38,360 nt of DNA from an uncultured bacterium (lineage in GTDB: Bacteria; Bacillota; Clostridia; Lachnospirales; Lachnospiraceae). Every line of letters begins with the position of its first letter. Within the stretch, counting starts at the first letter, position 1. The DNA lies in the NCBI GenBank assembly GCA_945828315.1, contig CALZQA010000017.1, positions 1-38,360 on the forward strand, written 5' to 3'. The translations under genes were made by a program, and so were the position numbers. Under the pieces are notes generated by a model. It searched no databases. It was not told where the DNA came from and saw only the letters and a program-made list of their open reading frames with translations. Shown in pieces: positions 3,350 through 11,259 of this stretch.

Positions 3350-3394
3350 CACACTTTTTTGCCCACAGAGGCGAATAAAATGTAGAGGATGAAT

Positions 3395-6300
3395 ATGATA
3401 CAACAAAAACAGATTTTAATTGTAGAAGATAATGAGATCAACCGTTCAATGCTGCGCGAGATATTATCAGATGAGTATGAGATTTGGGAAGCGGAGAACG
3501 GACAGGCTGCACTGGATATTCTAAAGCAGAAAAAGAACTCTATTATGCTCATTCTTCTGGATGTGCAAATGCCGGTCATGGATGGCTATACGTTCTTGAA
3601 TATCATGCAGAAGGATGAACAATTGTCATTGATCCCTGTGATCGTAATGACGCAGGACAGTAGCGAAGAGGATGAATTATCCGCGCTTACGCATGGAGCA
3701 ACGGATTTTTTACCGAAACCGTATCGTCCGAAGGTGATCCTGCGTCGGGTGGCAAATCTGATCAAACTGCGTGAGACAGCTGCGATGGTAAACCAGCTTC
3801 AGTATGATGAATTGACAGGCCTTTATACGAGAAAGTGTTTTTACCGCAAAGCCAGGGAACGTCTGGATGAAAATCCGGATAAGGAATACATGATCCTGTG
3901 TACAAATCTGGAGAATTTTAAACTGTTCAACGATACCTTTGGACGGAAAGCCGGTGACCGGCTTCTGTTGGAGAGCGCAGAAATCTTTCAAAAAAGGGTC
4001 GGACAGGAATCTATATGCTGCAGGTTCAATGCAGATCGTTTTGTATGTCTGATCGATAAGGAACTGGAGAAGATCGGAAGAAAGAACTTTGCCGATGGAC
4101 GAAAAAACAAACGCTCAGAGCTGACGGAGAATATTTCCGTCAAGCTTGGTGTCTATGAGATCACGGACCGGTCGATATCTGTTGAGCAGATGTGTGATCG
4201 TGCACTTCTTGCGGTTGACAGTATCAAGGGATTGTACAATCAGTATTTGGCAGTTTATGATGATACGCTTCGGGAAAAGCTGCTGTATGAGAAAGAGATC
4301 ACAGATTCTATGGAGACTGCGCTGGAGCAGGAGCAGTTTCTCATATATTTTCAACCGAAATACAGCCTGCATGATAATTGTATGGTTGGAGCCGAGGCAT
4401 TGGTCAGGTGGGAACATCCCAAGAAGGGATTTATGCCGCCGGACAAGTTTATTCCACTTTTTGAGAAGAATGGCTTTATTCACGATCTGGACAGGTATGT
4501 GTGGGAGAAAGCATGCCAAAAGGTGCAGGAATGGCAAGGGAAAGGTTATCCGCAGATCCCGGTTTCCGTGAATGTTTCGCGTGCAGACATTTATCAGCCC
4601 TGTTTGGTAGAGGGCTTTTGCGAGCTTGTAAAAAAATATGAGATTGAGCCTTCTTCTCTGCATCTGGAGATTACAGAAAGTGCCTACACAGAATGTCCGG
4701 ATCAGATCATCAGTACCGTGGAGGAGTTGCGTAAACGCGGATTTATCATTGAGATGGATGACTTTGGCAGCGGATATTCATCGTTAAGTCTGCTCAGTCA
4801 GCTGTCCATAGATATTTTGAAGCTGGATATGGATTTTATCCGAAATGAATTGGCAAAACCGGTGGAACAGAGCATTTTAAATGATGTGATCAATATGGCG
4901 CACCGGATGCATTTGAATGTTGTGGCAGAGGGCGTGGAGACAAGCGATCAAAGGAAGCGTCTGAAGGTATTGGGCTGTGATTATGCGCAGGGATATTTCT
5001 TTGCTAAACCGATGCCGGTTGCAGAATTTGAAGGTTTGCTGAAGATGTATAAAAATTTATTTAGTGACATGGTCACGGATGTGAGTCTGATGGATAAAAC
5101 TACTCTGATCAAAGACGTAAGCGGGGCGAAGCGAACTGTTTTAGTGATCGAAGATAATGAGGTCAACCGCAAAAGTCTGACAGAGATCCTGGAAGGACAG
5201 TATATCGTGCTAACTGCGGAAAACGGAAAAGAAGGTCTTGAAGTCCTGCGCAAAAACGGACAATATATTACAGCAATCATGCTGGATATACAAATGCCGG
5301 TCATGAACGGATACGAGTTTTTGGAGCATGTAAGCAGTGATCCGGCGTTCAGTAAGATCCCGGTGATCGTTACAACCGTTTTTGGCAGTGAAAGCGAAGA
5401 AGAAAAATGTCTGGCACTGGGGGCCTCCGATTTTATTGGAAAGCCATATAATGCAAAAAGTATCCTGACCCGACTTGGAAATATCATTCATTTGAGAGAG
5501 TGCGACAGCATTATCTCCGAATTGGAGATTGATGCGTTGACAGGTTTTAAAAACCGGAAAGCCTATTATGAAGAGGTCGAGATGATCGAACATGATCCGG
5601 AGCAGTGCGTGCGGCCAATAGGCGTTGTTTTTGCGGATATCAACGGACTGAAAGCAGTCAATGACAGCGAAGGACATGAAGCGGGAGACAAATTGATCGC
5701 AGAGATTGCAAGATCGATACGGGAAGTGTTTACGGAGGCAAACATCTACAGACTTGGCGGAGATGAGTTTGTCATTTTGTCCTTTGAAGAAAACGAAGAC
5801 ATTTTTTCCAAAAAAATGAAAGCGCTGGAACACTGTTGGAAAGACGGACGTTCTGCAGCACTTGGAGGTGTATGGCTGGAACAGGCGAAAGAGCTGGAAC
5901 AGCACGTGGCGCTTGCCGATCAGGCAATGTATCGTGATAAGAGCCAGTATTACGAGAAGAATCATTACGATCGCAGAAGTGTAAAACAGAACAGAGCGGG
6001 AGAAATGAACCGGACAGGAAAACAGAATCTGATCAGTGTGAAGGAATTGACAGACCAGGAGACGATCATACAGGGCCTGGGAGCTGTTTACTATTCGGTA
6101 CTTTTGGTGGATTATTTACATGACAGAGTCACGATCTATCGCCATGAGGGTGAGGATGGTCGTGATATAGCAGATAATTTTGCAAAATACGATTTTCACT
6201 GGACCGAAGGTATCGGGCAGTACTGTCTGAATCTGGTATCCGAGGACAGCAGAGAGGTGCTTTTCAGAGCGCTCTCCGTGGAAAATTTAAGTGAAGCGAA

Positions 6301-6856
6301 GAAAGGTTTTTCTGTCAATTATCAGAAAAAGACTGCAGGCGGATTGTTGTATCTGGAAGCAAGTGTCAGCTTTGTGGATAAAAGTGATGGCGGACGTGTG
6401 GCAGTGATCGGTACGCGGAACGTGAAGAACACAGTCAGACATGCGAAAGTACTCCATGCGAGACTTCAGATGATCGCTGATGCGATAGCATCCGTATATC
6501 CGCTGGTGGTTGTGATAAATCTGACGAAAAATACATATCAGATGACTGCGTACAGTGAATTTATCAATCGGATCGGGGGATCCGATGGTTTGGTGGATGA
6601 CCTGATCGTGATAGGCGCATCGTTCCTTCCGGATCAGGAGGAAGCGGAAGTGTATCGCCGGACTTTTTGCAGGGAAAATCAGATCAGAGCCTTTCAAAGT
6701 GGTGAAAAGCAGTTAGTGCTGTACCACAAACAGAAGGGGGATGACGGTCAGACATACCGGATGGAGACCAGAGTCGTTTTTACAGGCGGAGAAGACGAGG
6801 ATATGCATGCAGTCTTATTTTCGCGTGTTGTTGACACATCAAAATATGCGTGTTAG
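3395..6856 (+). CDS. Multi-domain c-di-GMP protein: REC-GGDEF*-EAL-REC-GGDEF-PAS-like
   Basis: 1153 residues from the second ATG (3395), chosen because AGAGG lies 6 nt before it and abuts the ATG at 3389. Domain order: receiver 1 (acceptor Asp56 in LLDVQMP, Lys108); a degenerate GGDEF whose signature reads NADRF (212-216), so it should not synthesise c-di-GMP; an EAL phosphodiesterase (Glu334 in EALVRW, SVNVSR, EITES, DDFGSGYSSL, LKLD, AEGVET, AQGYFFAKP) with a full set of catalytic motifs; receiver 2 (Asp631 in MLDIQMP); an intact GGDEF (788-792); and about 290 C-terminal residues resembling two divergent PAS-like sensor modules. It has no membrane segment and no partner kinase beside it. 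By motif it should both make and break c-di-GMP, with each half behind its own receiver. Its last 26 bp hold the promoter of the next gene. Confidence 0.93.
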   Translation: MIQQKQILIVEDNEINRSMLREILSDEYEIWEAENGQAALDILKQKKNSIMLILLDVQMPVMDGYTFLNIMQKDEQLSLIPVIVMTQDSSEEDELSALTHGATDFLPKPYRPKVILRRVANLIKLRETAAMVNQLQYDELTGLYTRKCFYRKARERLDENPDKEYMILCTNLENFKLFNDTFGRKAGDRLLLESAEIFQKRVGQESICCRFNADRFVCLIDKELEKIGRKNFADGRKNKRSELTENISVKLGVYEITDRSISVEQMCDRALLAVDSIKGLYNQYLAVYDDTLREKLLYEKEITDSMETALEQEQFLIYFQPKYSLHDNCMVGAEALVRWEHPKKGFMPPDKFIPLFEKNGFIHDLDRYVWEKACQKVQEWQGKGYPQIPVSVNVSRADIYQPCLVEGFCELVKKYEIEPSSLHLEITESAYTECPDQIISTVEELRKRGFIIEMDDFGSGYSSLSLLSQLSIDILKLDMDFIRNELAKPVEQSILNDVINMAHRMHLNVVAEGVETSDQRKRLKVLGCDYAQGYFFAKPMPVAEFEGLLKMYKNLFSDMVTDVSLMDKTTLIKDVSGAKRTVLVIEDNEVNRKSLTEILEGQYIVLTAENGKEGLEVLRKNGQYITAIMLDIQMPVMNGYEFLEHVSSDPAFSKIPVIVTTVFGSESEEEKCLALGASDFIGKPYNAKSILTRLGNIIHLRECDSIISELEIDALTGFKNRKAYYEEVEMIEHDPEQCVRPIGVVFADINGLKAVNDSEGHEAGDKLIAEIARSIREVFTEANIYRLGGDEFVILSFEENEDIFSKKMKALEHCWKDGRSAALGGVWLEQAKELEQHVALADQAMYRDKSQYYEKNHYDRRSVKQNRAGEMNRTGKQNLISVKELTDQETIIQGLGAVYYSVLLVDYLHDRVTIYRHEGEDGRDIADNFAKYDFHWTEGIGQYCLNLVSEDSREVLFRALSVENLSEAKKGFSVNYQKKTAGGLLYLEASVSFVDKSDGGRVAVIGTRNVKNTVRHAKVLHARLQMIADAIASVYPLVVVINLTKNTYQMTAYSEFINRIGGSDGLVDDLIVIGASFLPDQEEAEVYRRTFCRENQIRAFQSGEKQLVLYHKQKGDDGQTYRMETRVVFTGGEDEDMHAVLFSRVVDTSKYAC

Positions 6857-6859
6857 AAT
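6831..6859 (+). promoter_or_regulatory. Strong sigma-A-type promoter for the ABC-F leader
   Basis: TTGACA (6831-6836), a 17-bp spacer, and TAGAAT (6854-6859) preceded by TGT, giving an extended -10 (TGTTAGAAT). It overlaps the last codons and stop of the upstream c-di-GMP gene. The predicted transcript start near 6866 lies a few nucleotides before the leader hairpin, so the ABC-F gene should be transcribed independently. Confidence 0.75.
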
Positions 6860-6871
6860 AACAGCAGTTTA

Positions 6872-7004
6872 GAAAGAGAGAGGTGAAAAAATGAGAAGAT
6901 AATCTACTTTTGATCACATGAGGTTTTGACAGTATGGATCGTAATGTTCATACTGTTTGTCATGTTGCCAAAAGTGGATTATGTTCTCATAACCTCTCTT
7001 TTTT
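6872..7004 (+). promoter_or_regulatory. Ribosome-dependent attenuator leader upstream of the ABC-F gene
   Basis: The whole leader can fold into one long hairpin. Visible helices: 6872-6884 with 6992-7004 (13 bp with two G-U, containing the leader Shine-Dalgarno on the 5' side and a U-run on the 3' side); 6891-6897 with 6984-6990 (7 bp, covering the uORF start codon); 6899-6912 with 6969-6982 (14 bp, one G-U); and an inner 7-bp hairpin 6930-6936/6949-6955. The 3' side ends CCTCTC followed by six T (6999-7004), as in an intrinsic terminator. A ribosome held on the three-codon ORF at 6891 would block the 5' strand and allow read-through. Short-uORF attenuators of this kind are known for other antibiotic-resistance ABC-F genes; the mechanism here is inferred from the sequence. 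Confidence 0.75.
6891..6902 (+). CDS. Three-codon leader peptide (Met-Arg-Arg)
   Basis: ATG AGA AGA TAA, with a good ribosome site (AGAGAGGTG, 6877-6885) 5 nt upstream. It lies inside the attenuator hairpin: the ribosome site and start codon pair with sequence just before the terminator U-run. A minimal ORF of this kind does not make a functional product; it would place a ribosome at initiation or early elongation, where peptidyl-transferase-site antibiotics (lincosamides, pleuromutilins, streptogramin A) act. The two Arg codons are both AGA. Confidence 0.65.
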   Translation: MRR

Positions 7005-7114
7005 GTGTGCAAAATTATTTGGTTGTAACATCATCTCTCCGATGATATGAGGTCATAGAACGTAAGGAAATCGTTTGGCAGCAAACAGTTGGAATGCTAC
7101 GGGGAGGAATGGAT

Positions 7115-8644
7115 ATGGCACAAATAAGAGTAAATAATCTTACGTTTTACTATGATGGAAGCTTTGATGATATTTTTGAAAATGTTTCATTTTCTATTGA
7201 TACGGATTGGAAGCTGGGCTTCATTGGACGAAACGGAAAAGGAAAGACAACATTTTTAAATCTTTTGATGGGGAAGTATGAGTACAAAGGTTCTATCGAG
7301 ACAAATACAATGTTTGACTATTTTCCTTATCAGATCACGGAGCAGCAGATGAAATTGCCGGCAGCCGAATTTTTGGTGGAATTGAAGGCAGGCTGTGAAG
7401 ACTGGCGCGTGATCTGTGAACTGGCAGGATTGGGTGAAAATGCAGAGATTCTTTACAGACCTTTTGGGACACTCAGTCCGGGAGAGCGCACAAAAGTTTT
7501 ATTGGCAATCCTGTTTTCCGGTGATAATGATTTTCTATTGATCGATGAGCCGACCAATCATCTGGATCAGGAAGCCAGAGAGATCGTAAAACAGTATCTG
7601 GCATCAAAAAAAGGATTTATCCTGGTATCCCATGACAGAGATCTGCTGGATGCGTGCACGGATCATTGTCTGGTATTGAACCGGAAAAGTATTGAAGTGC
7701 AGAGTGGAAATTTCTCTGGATGGTGGGAGAATAAGCAGCGAAAAGACCAGTTTGTCATGGCGGAGAATGAAAAACATCAGAAGGAGATCCGGAAGCTGAA
7801 GCAGGCAGCAAGGCAGACTGCTGAGTGGGCTGACAAGAATGAGCGCACCAAGATCGGCTTTGATCCGATCAAGGAGCACGACAGGTTTTTGGATACAAGG
7901 GCATACATCGGTGCAAAGACAAAGAAAATGCAGAGCAGAGTCTCTCAGATGGAAAAACGGATCAGCCGGGAGATTGAAGAAAAAGAAGGACTGTTGCAGG
8001 ATCTGGAAACTCCGGTTGATCTGAAGCTGTTTCAGCTCGAACATCACAAGGACACACTTGTGAATGTGAAGGATTACAGCGTGAGATATGCAGACGCAGA
8101 ACACCCGGTTTTTAAAGGATTGACATTTGCAATTCACAGAGGAGACCGGATCGTGTTGTCCGGGAAAAACGGCTGTGGTAAGTCGACGCTGATCAGGATG
8201 ATCCTGCAGAAAGCAGATGAAGAGCGTATGGATATGAATGTTTTGGAAGAAGGCATTTGTGAAACAGCATCGGGGCTGGTGATCTCCTATGTCGGACAGA
8301 ATGCGACAGGTTTAAAGGGAGATATTCCAACTTTTTGCCGGGCAAATGATCTGGATCAGAGTCTTTTTTGCGCGATACTCCGGCAGCTTGATTTTGACCG
8401 GGTGCAGTTTGCAAAAAACATGGAGGATTATTCTGAAGGGCAGAAAAAGAAAATACTGCTGGCGCGAAGTCTGCTGACACCGGCACATCTCTATATCTGG
8501 GACGAACCTCTGAACTACATTGATGTGTTTTCAAGAATGCAGATCGAAAAACTGTTGCTCACATATCAGCCGACGATGCTGTTCGTGGAACATGATGTGC
8601 GGTTTCGGGAGAAGATCGCTACGGGTTGCATAGAATTGTTTTAG
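7115..8644 (+). CDS. ABC-F ribosomal protection protein, Lsa-like
   Basis: 509 residues with two ABC domains and no membrane segments, as in ABC-F translation factors. Domain 1: Walker A GRNGKGKT (38-45), signature LSPGE, Walker B LLIDEPTNHLD, switch SHDRD. The linker is Lys/Glu-rich (ENEKHQKEIRKLKQAARQTAEW) and includes the helical arm that reaches the peptidyl-transferase centre. Domain 2: GKNGCGKST, YSEGQKKK, LYIWDEPLNYID, EHD. The WKLGFIGRNGKGKTT and WDEPLNYIDVF segments closely resemble Lsa/CplR-type proteins, which expel lincosamides, pleuromutilins and streptogramin A from stalled ribosomes. The start is set at 7115 (MAQIRVNN) because GGGGAGG lies 7 nt upstream; 7094 and 7109 are poorly placed. 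Expression should be controlled by the leader at 6872-7004. The exact drug range cannot be read from sequence. Confidence 0.9.
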   Translation: MAQIRVNNLTFYYDGSFDDIFENVSFSIDTDWKLGFIGRNGKGKTTFLNLLMGKYEYKGSIETNTMFDYFPYQITEQQMKLPAAEFLVELKAGCEDWRVICELAGLGENAEILYRPFGTLSPGERTKVLLAILFSGDNDFLLIDEPTNHLDQEAREIVKQYLASKKGFILVSHDRDLLDACTDHCLVLNRKSIEVQSGNFSGWWENKQRKDQFVMAENEKHQKEIRKLKQAARQTAEWADKNERTKIGFDPIKEHDRFLDTRAYIGAKTKKMQSRVSQMEKRISREIEEKEGLLQDLETPVDLKLFQLEHHKDTLVNVKDYSVRYADAEHPVFKGLTFAIHRGDRIVLSGKNGCGKSTLIRMILQKADEERMDMNVLEEGICETASGLVISYVGQNATGLKGDIPTFCRANDLDQSLFCAILRQLDFDRVQFAKNMEDYSEGQKKKILLARSLLTPAHLYIWDEPLNYIDVFSRMQIEKLLLTYQPTMLFVEHDVRFREKIATGCIELF

Positions 8645-8754: not shown

Positions 8755-8943
8755 AATAACAAAGATAAAAACGCAACGAGTATTTGGTGCTTCAGAGCCG
8801 GTTGGGCGCATGACGTCCGGGGGACGTCAGTTTTGCGCCGACCGAAACGGAGTGAAGATGCCCGGCCGTCACGGAGAAATCTGTGGTAAGTAACCTGCCC
8901 CTCCGGGTTGTCCGTTCTTTGTTCATCAATTCATGAAGGAGGG
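8755..8943 (+). promoter_or_regulatory. Probable yjdF-motif riboswitch (azaaromatic-responsive class)
   Basis: A long structured leader precedes a yjdF homologue, the classic position of the yjdF RNA. Visible structure: a two-tier hairpin with CGGT/ACCG (8799-8802/8841-8844), GGCGCA/TGCGCC (8805-8810/8834-8839) and TGACGTCC/GGACGTCA (8811-8818/8822-8829, loop GGG), enclosed by CTTCA/TGAAG (8790-8794/8853-8857). Downstream, CCCTCC (8899-8904) is perfectly complementary to the Shine-Dalgarno GGAGGG (8938-8943), which suggests translational control. No T-run terminator is present. The class assignment rests mainly on gene context; covariance-model confirmation was not possible here. Confidence 0.7.
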
Positions 8944-9520: not shown

Positions 9521-10297
9521 ATGAACCAGAATGAAAAACGAGTGTTTTTAATTGAGAGATTGTTAAAAGAACAGCCGGGATATGCAAAGATGCAGATACC
9601 GGATCGGATAGATGAGCAGAAAACCATCCTCCGCTCTCTTATGAATATTCGGATGCCCGGAAATATGGATGATGAATTTTTAAGTGTTCAGGATGAATAT
9701 TTACAGCAGGTCAATGAGGAAAAAGGCGTAGTTACACTTTCGAATATGGAAGAGCTGCAGCCGGACATTTATATCTGGAAGGGTGACATCACGAGATTAA
9801 AAGTTGGTGCCATAGTGAATGCTGCTAATAGCGGAATGACAGGATGCTATCAGCCATGTCATAACTGCATTGACAATTGTATTCATACATATGCCGGAGT
9901 CCAGTTAAGGCTTATATGTGCAAAGATTATGAAAGAGCAGGGGTATGAAGAACCGACCGGTCAGGCAAAGATCACTCCAGCATATAATCTTCCCTGTGAT
10001 CATGTGATCCATACGGTAGGACCGATCGTGCAGGGAGCACTGACAAAAAAGCATGAGGAACTGCTGGCATCCTGCTATCGGTCGTGCCTTGAAACAGCAG
10101 GTGAAAATGGAGTGGCATCCATAGCATTTTGCTGTATTTCAACAGGGGTATTTATGTTTCCAAATAAAAGAGCTGCAGAGATTGCGGTAAAAACGGTGAA
10201 AGAATATAAAGAGAAAACAAATAGTTCGATGAAGGTGATCTTTAATGTGTTTCAAGATCTGGATGAAGAGATCTACAGAGAACTGTTAAGAGGGTGA
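9521..10297 (+). CDS. Zinc-dependent macrodomain ADP-ribosyl hydrolase
   Basis: 258 residues. An N-terminal helical region (1-75) is followed by a macrodomain: WKGDITRLKVGAIVNAANSG (ADP-ribose binding), GCYQPCHNCIDNCIH (108-122), which contains the Cys/His residues of the zinc site typical of sirtuin-linked macrodomains, then HVIHTVGPI and CCISTGVFMFP (distal phosphate loop). This subclass removes mono-ADP-ribose from proteins modified by the SirTM partner. The downstream SirTM gene overlaps or nearly abuts it, so the two are surely co-expressed: writer and eraser. In the S. aureus/S. pyogenes operons the target is a lipoylated GcvH-like carrier encoded alongside, but no GcvH-L or LplA gene is present in this window. 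A GAAGG ribosome site lies 8 nt upstream. Confidence 0.92.
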   Translation: MNQNEKRVFLIERLLKEQPGYAKMQIPDRIDEQKTILRSLMNIRMPGNMDDEFLSVQDEYLQQVNEEKGVVTLSNMEELQPDIYIWKGDITRLKVGAIVNAANSGMTGCYQPCHNCIDNCIHTYAGVQLRLICAKIMKEQGYEEPTGQAKITPAYNLPCDHVIHTVGPIVQGALTKKHEELLASCYRSCLETAGENGVASIAFCCISTGVFMFPNKRAAEIAVKTVKEYKEKTNSSMKVIFNVFQDLDEEIYRELLRG

Positions 10298-10302
10298 TTT
10301 GT

Positions 10303-11259
10303 GTGAAAATGATTAAATTTCCAAATAAGAAAATAACATTTGATTCTTTTCTTTGCGGTACACCTGCAGGGGATTATATCTATCAGGACACAGATTACAA
10401 GAAACAGGTAAGAGATGCCGCTGCAATGATACGTAATGCAGAGTATGTGCTGATTGGAGCCGGAGCCGGAATGAGTACGGCGGCAGGTGCACAGTATGGC
10501 GGGAAATTCTTTGAAGAGAATTTCGGAGAGTTCCAGAAGAAATATGGCAAAGGCCCGTATATGCAGGATATGTATTACGCAGGGTTTTATCCCTTCCCTG
10601 ATGAAGAAAGTTATTGGGGATACTGGTCAAAACAGGCGTTGCTGGGCGGGATCAACCTTGACGTAACGCCGCTTCATAAATTACTTTTGGCGGCATTATC
10701 TGATAAGAAATTATTTGTATTAAGTACGAATGCAGATGCCCAGTTTGTGAAAGCCGGATTATCAGAGCAAAAGATTTTCTGCACCCAGGGAGACTATTTT
10801 CACATTCAATGTGGAAGAGGATGCCATGATAAAACATATGATGCAGTAGAATTGTTTCATCAGATGGATCAGGCAAGAACAGACTGCAAGATCCCATCAT
10901 CTATGGTTCCAAAATGTCCTGTTTGCGGCGGACCGATGGACATGAATCTTCGGAAAGATAGCTTTTTTGTTCAGGATGACGCCTGGTATGAGGCGGAAGA
11001 ACGGTTTTCTGATTTTCTGTCAGACGCAATAGATAAAAAGCTGGTTCTTCTGGAACTGGGCGTGGGATTTAACACCCCGACAATTATCCGGTTTCCATTT
11101 GAAAAGCTGGTAAGAGAACATGATCAGATAAGTCTGATCAGACTGAATCTTGATCAGGCAGTTGTACCGAAAAGTTTTGGAAGCAGAGCTGTGGGTATCA
11201 ATGCGGATATGGCAGAGAGCATCAAAGATATCGCGGAGTGCTGCACGCTGAATGAATAG
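10303..11259 (+). CDS. SirTM-type (class M) sirtuin, protein ADP-ribosyltransferase
   Basis: About 318 residues from GTG 10303, preferred because AAGAGGG ends 8 nt upstream; GTG 10294 (overlapping the macrodomain stop) and ATG 10309 are alternatives. The Sir2 fold is shown by GAGAGMSTAAG (from 52), STNADAQF (Asn143, Asp145) and a zinc site CGRGC ... CPVCG. The residue after STNADAQF that should be the catalytic His reads Gln162 (CTQGDYF). That substitution, with the adjacent macrodomain, marks class M sirtuins, which use NAD to ADP-ribosylate protein rather than deacetylate it. The specific target here is unknown. The FAD/Rieske oxidoreductase starts 54 nt downstream on the same strand without a visible terminator and may share the transcript. 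Confidence 0.92.
   Translation: MKMIKFPNKKITFDSFLCGTPAGDYIYQDTDYKKQVRDAAAMIRNAEYVLIGAGAGMSTAAGAQYGGKFFEENFGEFQKKYGKGPYMQDMYYAGFYPFPDEESYWGYWSKQALLGGINLDVTPLHKLLLAALSDKKLFVLSTNADAQFVKAGLSEQKIFCTQGDYFHIQCGRGCHDKTYDAVELFHQMDQARTDCKIPSSMVPKCPVCGGPMDMNLRKDSFFVQDDAWYEAEERFSDFLSDAIDKKLVLLELGVGFNTPTIIRFPFEKLVREHDQISLIRLNLDQAVVPKSFGSRAVGINADMAESIKDIAECCTLNE

Follow-up and report, generated by a model that had tools for sequence, protein, structure and literature searches.

A conserved hairpin holding a three-codon uORF upstream of an Lsa-type ABC-F gene in Lachnospiraceae is probably a ribosome-mediated transcription attenuator

Introduction

Why should an open reading frame of only three codons be enclosed in a 133-nt hairpin just upstream of an ABC-F gene? 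The question is raised by a locus in a 38,360-nt stretch of DNA from an uncultured member of the Lachnospiraceae, which we analysed as a whole and refer to as the window. For the leaders of VmlR and CplR, attenuation has been shown experimentally (PMC9226507, PMC10201436). A first-pass annotation of the window, made from the letters alone, read the locus as the same kind of control, with a terminator that a ribosome on the upstream ORF (uORF) would open. Here we ask how far folding and comparison with relatives bear out this reading.

Results

The leader and its gene

The features of the locus are the following:

6831-6859, + strand: extended -10 sigma-70-type promoter, TTGACA-17-TAGAAT plus TG, with the -35 element at 6831-6836 and the -10 element at 6854-6859
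6872-7004, + strand: T1, a 133-nt hairpin ending in a U-run (fold, covariation, covariance-model match of 146 bits)
6880-6885, + strand: uORF Shine-Dalgarno GAGGTG, within the 5' arm of T1 (columns mostly invariant or nearly so in 76 leaders)
6891-6902, + strand: uORF ATGAGAAGATAA, that is ATG AGA AGA TAA (MRR), with start and stop kept in 76 leaders
6965-6996, + strand: pivot strand, the 3' arm of T1, with two alternative partners, the uORF arm and the downstream strand (complementarity, partner permutation, covariation)
6999-7004, + strand: U-run of T1, six U (sequence)
7035-7040, + strand: CUCUCC, predicted partner of the gene's Shine-Dalgarno without the antiterminator (folds, accessibility; not conserved family-wide)
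7049-7081, + strand: antiterminator partner strand GAGGTCATAGAACGTAAGGAAATCGTTTGGCAG (duplex energy, blocked fold, covariation)
7066-7097, + strand: degenerate remnant of a second terminator, T2, without a U-run, -6.4 kcal/mol (fold, comparison with relatives)
7101-7107, + strand: Shine-Dalgarno GGGGAGG of the ABC-F gene (sequence)
7115-8644, + strand: Lsa-type ABC-F ribosomal protection protein, 509 aa (NF000167, NF000355; nearest structure Lsa(A), 7nhk)

The top-scoring family for the gene product is NF000167 (Lsa), matched over 492/492 positions at 616.8 bits; since this is below the curated cut-off of 750, we call the protein Lsa-type. It passes the cut-off of 380 for the general ribosomal-protection ABC-F family NF000355 with 446 bits, and the nearest solved structure by sequence is that of Lsa(A) (7nhk), so that the Lsa-like gene seen by the first-pass annotation behind a uORF-bearing terminator is recovered by profile searches as well. 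We set the gene start at 7115 (MAQIRV...) instead of 7094, where the mechanical ORF begins, because nearly all homologues begin with MAQI-like residues. The gene is chromosomal. Carriage of a close relative on plasmids was considered and rejected, the best plasmid protein being just 52% identical, as was viral carriage, an exact conserved 30-mer having no match in viral contigs. Directly 3' of the gene lies a yjdF azaaromatic riboswitch (RF01764, 55.4 bits; 8755-8931, + strand) followed by a small YjdF-like ORF, which would place two small-molecule-responsive leaders back to back; this riboswitch is the sole match to Rfam at the gathering threshold in the window, and there is no credible match at 6800-7120. 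Farther along the + strand, at 9521-11259, a gene for a macrodomain protein-ADP-ribose hydrolase (NF003163) is directly followed by a sirtuin-like ORF with a weak match to NAD-dependent deacylase.

The promoter, Shine-Dalgarno, uORF, hairpin and U-run were all found where the first-pass annotation had placed them. The promoter has 11 of 12 consensus matches, a 17-nt spacer and the TG, and the predicted transcription start is close to 6866. T1 (6872-7004) folds at -62.5 kcal/mol, compared with -28.3 +/- 3.9 in 200 dinucleotide shuffles (z -8.8), and has the 13-bp basal helix that had been described before any thermodynamic folding; both the Shine-Dalgarno and the start codon of the uORF lie in the stem, as parts of its 5' arm. 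Such an energy is not unique to T1, since another 145-nt tile in the window reaches -61.1. We therefore judge T1 to be real on the strength of conservation, that is, of the orthologue loci, the promoters and the covarying helices. The stem closes over about 110 nt, which is long for an intrinsic terminator and which we count against the terminator reading.

Conservation of the leader and its uORF

Orthologues were taken from 80 species-level genomes and from the family genome set, and those carrying the element are 65-93% identical. A covariance model made from 76 leaders matched the coding strand upstream of 76/80 orthologues at E<1e-9; these E-values are rough, the calibration having been shortened, and the 76 leaders come largely from the same 80 loci, so that the matches are partly by construction and it is covariation that provides independent evidence. 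Alignment A1, chosen with a TTTTT requirement, has 93.9% of T1 cells paired, and pairing falls to 46-62% when the partners are slid. Double-sided changes affect 14 pairs and 44 cells, compared with 7.4 and 15.1 in shuffles (0/500). Among 91 leaders not selected on U-run length, 73 have a run of at least five U, an approximate count because a few leaders are misregistered, and several of the remaining 18 have just three or four.

The promoter is at the expected place in 70/78 leaders, compared with 6/78 shuffled ones. The ORFs upstream fall into 61 clusters among 73 loci, with the element staying with the ABC-F gene; together with the element's own promoter, this variety indicates that it belongs to the downstream gene. 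The element is present in 49/397 family genomes and in a single copy in the genome of the window; cultured species that have it include Ruminococcus flavefaciens and Lacrimispora saccharolytica.

In the 76 leaders the start codon of the uORF is invariant and the stop is always codon 4. Codon 2 specifies R or K in 72 of them, codon 3 does so in 65 and Ile in 10, giving the consensus M-[R/K]-[R/K/I]. Arg at codon 2 is encoded by CGN in seven leaders; five of these keep Arg although the T1 pair at that place is broken, which suggests that the codon is under selection in addition to the helix. The first-pass annotation had raised the conservation of MRR and of the helices across orthologous leaders, and what is conserved are the fixed start and stop, the basic codons and covarying T1 helices.

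In Lsa homologues under about 62% identity the covariance model did not find the element, save for marginal matches at L010 and L007. These two leaders, whose uORF has four codons (MKIR in L010, MEIR in L007) and whose hairpin is similar in part, are possibly an intermediate form. More distant Lsa homologues (L009, L013, L019, L020, L023 and L024) carry a different family of short uORFs, such as MINFSCK, MENTSCK, MYNTFSC and MIVFSC, and in several of their leaders a complementary GCAAGAAA-like segment can be seen by eye downstream.

A predicted antiterminator sharing a strand with T1

In most relatives the interval separating T1 from the gene holds another conserved block, GAGGUUAUAGUAUGUAAUGGAACUGUUUGGCAA, several segments of which complement the T1 3' strand. 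When the region from pivot to block was folded, each of 14 leaders, including that of the window, formed a long antiterminator; in the window the duplex of pivot and partner reaches -25.9 kcal/mol. Averaged over 82 leaders, pairing of the pivot with the partner from the same leader reaches -27.3 kcal/mol, compared with -24.5 +/- 0.22 when partners are permuted between leaders (0/2000 as good as own) and -12.1 when the partner sequence is shuffled. In alignment A2, antiterminator cells are 95.3% paired, compared with 37-46% in slid versions, and double changes occur in 18 cells, compared with 4.3 in shuffles (0/500). Compensatory pairs include GCCUC/GAGGC in L080 and L036, GGCCGC/GCGGUU in L048 and CUCUAACCUC/GAGGUUAGAG in L089. 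Covariation is thus found for T1 and the antiterminator both.

When a ribosome footprint at 6876-6907 was blocked in folding, T1 was lost and the antiterminator became the minimum once 7081 had been made. The earlier proposal that mere occupancy opens the terminator holds to the extent that the blocked footprint stops the T1 stem from forming at the U-run, but it is incomplete, since the T1 3' strand has a conserved downstream partner. A local 3'-arm hairpin, GGAUUAUG-UUCU-CAUAACC, also folds when the 5' arm is blocked; as an antiterminator it was rejected, the long-range partner being better supported. In whole-leader folds of the window the ribosome-bound alternative (-56.6) is slightly favoured over the antiterminator (-53.4), so the switch would rely on co-transcriptional order.

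The second terminator and the gene's Shine-Dalgarno

The 3' half of the GAGGUUAUAGUAUGUAAUGGAACUGUUUGGCAA block is also the 5' arm of T2, which is intact in at least 68/86 leaders, a lower bound given that L058, L119 and L125 also look intact by eye. In the window and its nearest relative, L002, T2 has been lost: the U-run is absent, and the folds reach -6.4 and -5.7 kcal/mol, compared with -14.3 in L003. Despite this loss the antiterminator is kept (-25.9 in the window, -23.7 in L002). With the antiterminator formed, the Shine-Dalgarno of the gene in the window is predicted to be 85% unpaired, compared with 5% when no ribosome is present. L002 (48% vs 12%) and L003 (75% vs 0%) go in the same direction; L063 goes in the opposite one, which makes the release of the gene's Shine-Dalgarno by the antiterminator a prediction for the window's clade alone.

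In L054, L056, L057 and L060, which have lost T2, the sequence at its place seems to fold into a hairpin with the gene's Shine-Dalgarno (CCUUU/AAAGGAGG), which suggests a switch from a terminator to translational control.

Other genes behind the element

Model matches away from an intact Lsa gene were inspected one by one. These genomes are drafts, many of them probably metagenome-assembled, and single cases could be assembly errors. At two loci, L171 (G320:C35) and L172 (G297:C1), the element precedes a different ABC-F gene, 24% identical. The first gene after the element encodes a P-loop-GNAT fusion at L176 (G232:C17), and a lone GNAT gene follows it at L173 (G084:C284), the ABC-F gene of that genome being on another contig. 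At L174 (G376:C39) the element is followed by a truncated Lsa gene and then a GNAT remnant, at L177 (G366:C26) by a short Lsa stub and then a MATE-like pump, and at L175 (G081:C9) a phosphoesterase-like ORF lies 340 nt downstream. The GNAT domains were confirmed by Pfam; the MATE and phosphoesterase assignments come from reading the sequences.

In three genomes a P-loop NTPase with a weak NF005250 match is encoded directly 3' of the Lsa gene (G065:C12:68121-68882, G263:C12:4837-5610, G147:C60:12511-13281), where it is a possible accessory factor. Because such a gene adjoins the Lsa gene in these genomes, some of the cases with another gene behind the element are probably remains of operons that lost their Lsa gene.

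Discussion

The fold, the covariation of T1 and the antiterminator, the constraint on the uORF, the element's own promoter and the VmlR and CplR precedent together lead us to interpret the element as a ribosome-mediated transcription attenuator of the VmlR/CplR kind, with a probability of about 0.86; termination, translation of the uORF and the drug response are all inferred within this reading. The locus has the features of ARE ABC-F attenuators, namely an adjacent downstream gene, a conserved uORF with its ribosome site, a putative terminator and a mutually exclusive antiterminator. T1 would be at once the hairpin sequestering the uORF, an intrinsic terminator and an anti-antiterminator. Without drug, the uORF would be translated and quickly vacated, T1 would zip from the apex outwards until the basal helix closes at the U-run, and transcription would stop near 7004. 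The variable apical part may provide a ribosome loading window, the uORF ribosome site staying exposed while the polymerase makes about 100 nt. If a drug holds the ribosome at the uORF start, the 5' arm would be covered, T1 could not close and RNA polymerase would read on; the freed 6965-6996 would then pair with 7049-7081 as the antiterminator. In most relatives this would block T2 as well, and in the window, where T2 is lost, it would free the gene's Shine-Dalgarno instead. On the basis of the gene family and of VmlR and CplR (PMC9226507, PMC10201436), we expect pleuromutilins, lincosamides and streptogramin A to act as inducers.

Could T1 alone be the switch, the downstream strand being a leftover of an unrelated second terminator? 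With the uORF ribosome site in the 5' arm, a ribosome footprint by itself disrupts T1, and the window has no working T2. This simpler occlusion is nevertheless unlikely, as pivot and downstream strand covary across lineages and the window keeps its -25.9 kcal/mol antiterminator though T2 is gone. We consider it very improbable that the sensor is a riboswitch binding the drug itself, the uORF being incidental: the high sequence conservation of the internal segments CUUUUGAUUACAUGAA and GCCAAAAGUGG would fit, but the double pairing duty of the strand explains much of it, Rfam offers no match, the uORF start is invariant and its stop fixed, and related ABC-F genes are controlled by uORFs (PMC9226507, PMC10201436).

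The AUGUAA present in the downstream strand of many relatives could likewise be taken for a start-stop uORF acting as a separate sensor. We rejected this equally improbable idea because several leaders, the window's among them, have ACG, GCG or AUA there, variants that in most cases leave the antiterminator pair intact (G-U becoming G-C or A-U). Least probable of all is that the hairpin simply terminates the upstream gene or is a palindromic mobile element. It does start 16 bases past the end of the upstream ORF (3389-6856), and long palindromes can be mobile; yet the element stays constant with the ABC-F gene amid the varied upstream ORFs, a promoter separates the upstream gene body from the hairpin, and the uORF codons are conserved. 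Its single genomic copy and the varied upstream ORFs led us to reject this origin.

How does the putative attenuator compare with known ones? The Bacillus subtilis vmlR leader also has a three-codon uORF (MIN), lying in an anti-antiterminator hairpin, and an antibiotic-stalled ribosome lets its antiterminator form, which in turn relieves Shine-Dalgarno sequestration; there, however, the uORF Shine-Dalgarno lies in unpaired RNA ahead of SL-1 and termination is ascribed to SL-3 (PMC9226507), whereas the present leader has this Shine-Dalgarno within the stem and a U-run at the end of the uORF hairpin itself. The Clostridioides difficile cplR leader has a three-codon uORF, MR[I/M], close to the MRR, MKR and MRI found here, a hairpin sequestering it and an antiterminator/terminator alternative, but termination is ascribed only to a second hairpin, which holds the gene's Shine-Dalgarno (PMC10201436), and the protein is of another ABC-F subfamily. 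Since the uORFs of VmlR (MIN), VmlR2 (MK[L/Q]) and CplR (MR[I/M]) are equally long (PMC10201436), three codons are not the extreme form that the first-pass annotation took them for. Enterococcus faecalis lsa(A) shares the Lsa subfamily and a short predicted uORF, but the uORF consensus, MAGN, is unrelated in sequence (PMC10201436). The Listeria hflXr/rli80 attenuator, which is lincomycin-induced, likewise combines anti-antiterminator, antiterminator, terminator and a regulatory ORF, though this ORF has 14 aa with an RLR macrolide-stalling motif and the gene is a different one (PMC6310831).

Three-codon uORFs, uORF-sequestering hairpins and antiterminators are thus already known from VmlR and CplR. 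The layout of those leaders, with a uORF hairpin that is solely an anti-antiterminator and a separate downstream terminator, was not what we found, as the U-run is on T1 and the T2 of the window is degenerate. What is new here is the Shine-Dalgarno and start codon within a U-run-ended stem, and a single strand that, as judged from its pairing potential, would join one terminator and block another. Our literature search, which covered open papers, found no description of a leader of this type in Lachnospiraceae.

We tentatively propose, at slightly less than even odds, a two-gate sensor in which one strand toggles between the uORF hairpin and a second terminator, with the second gate lost in some lineages, and which has been kept or placed as a module before non-Lsa candidate resistance genes (GNAT, P-loop-GNAT fusion, MATE pump, another ABC-F). 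The covariance model can serve as a search tool, and the other genes behind the switch are candidate unrecognised resistance factors. What would set this switch apart from known ones is that the uORF-hiding hairpin is itself a terminator. Lachnospiraceae and ruminococci, major gut bacteria, carry a conserved and probably drug-inducible lsa-type gene whose switch is recognisable by sequence.
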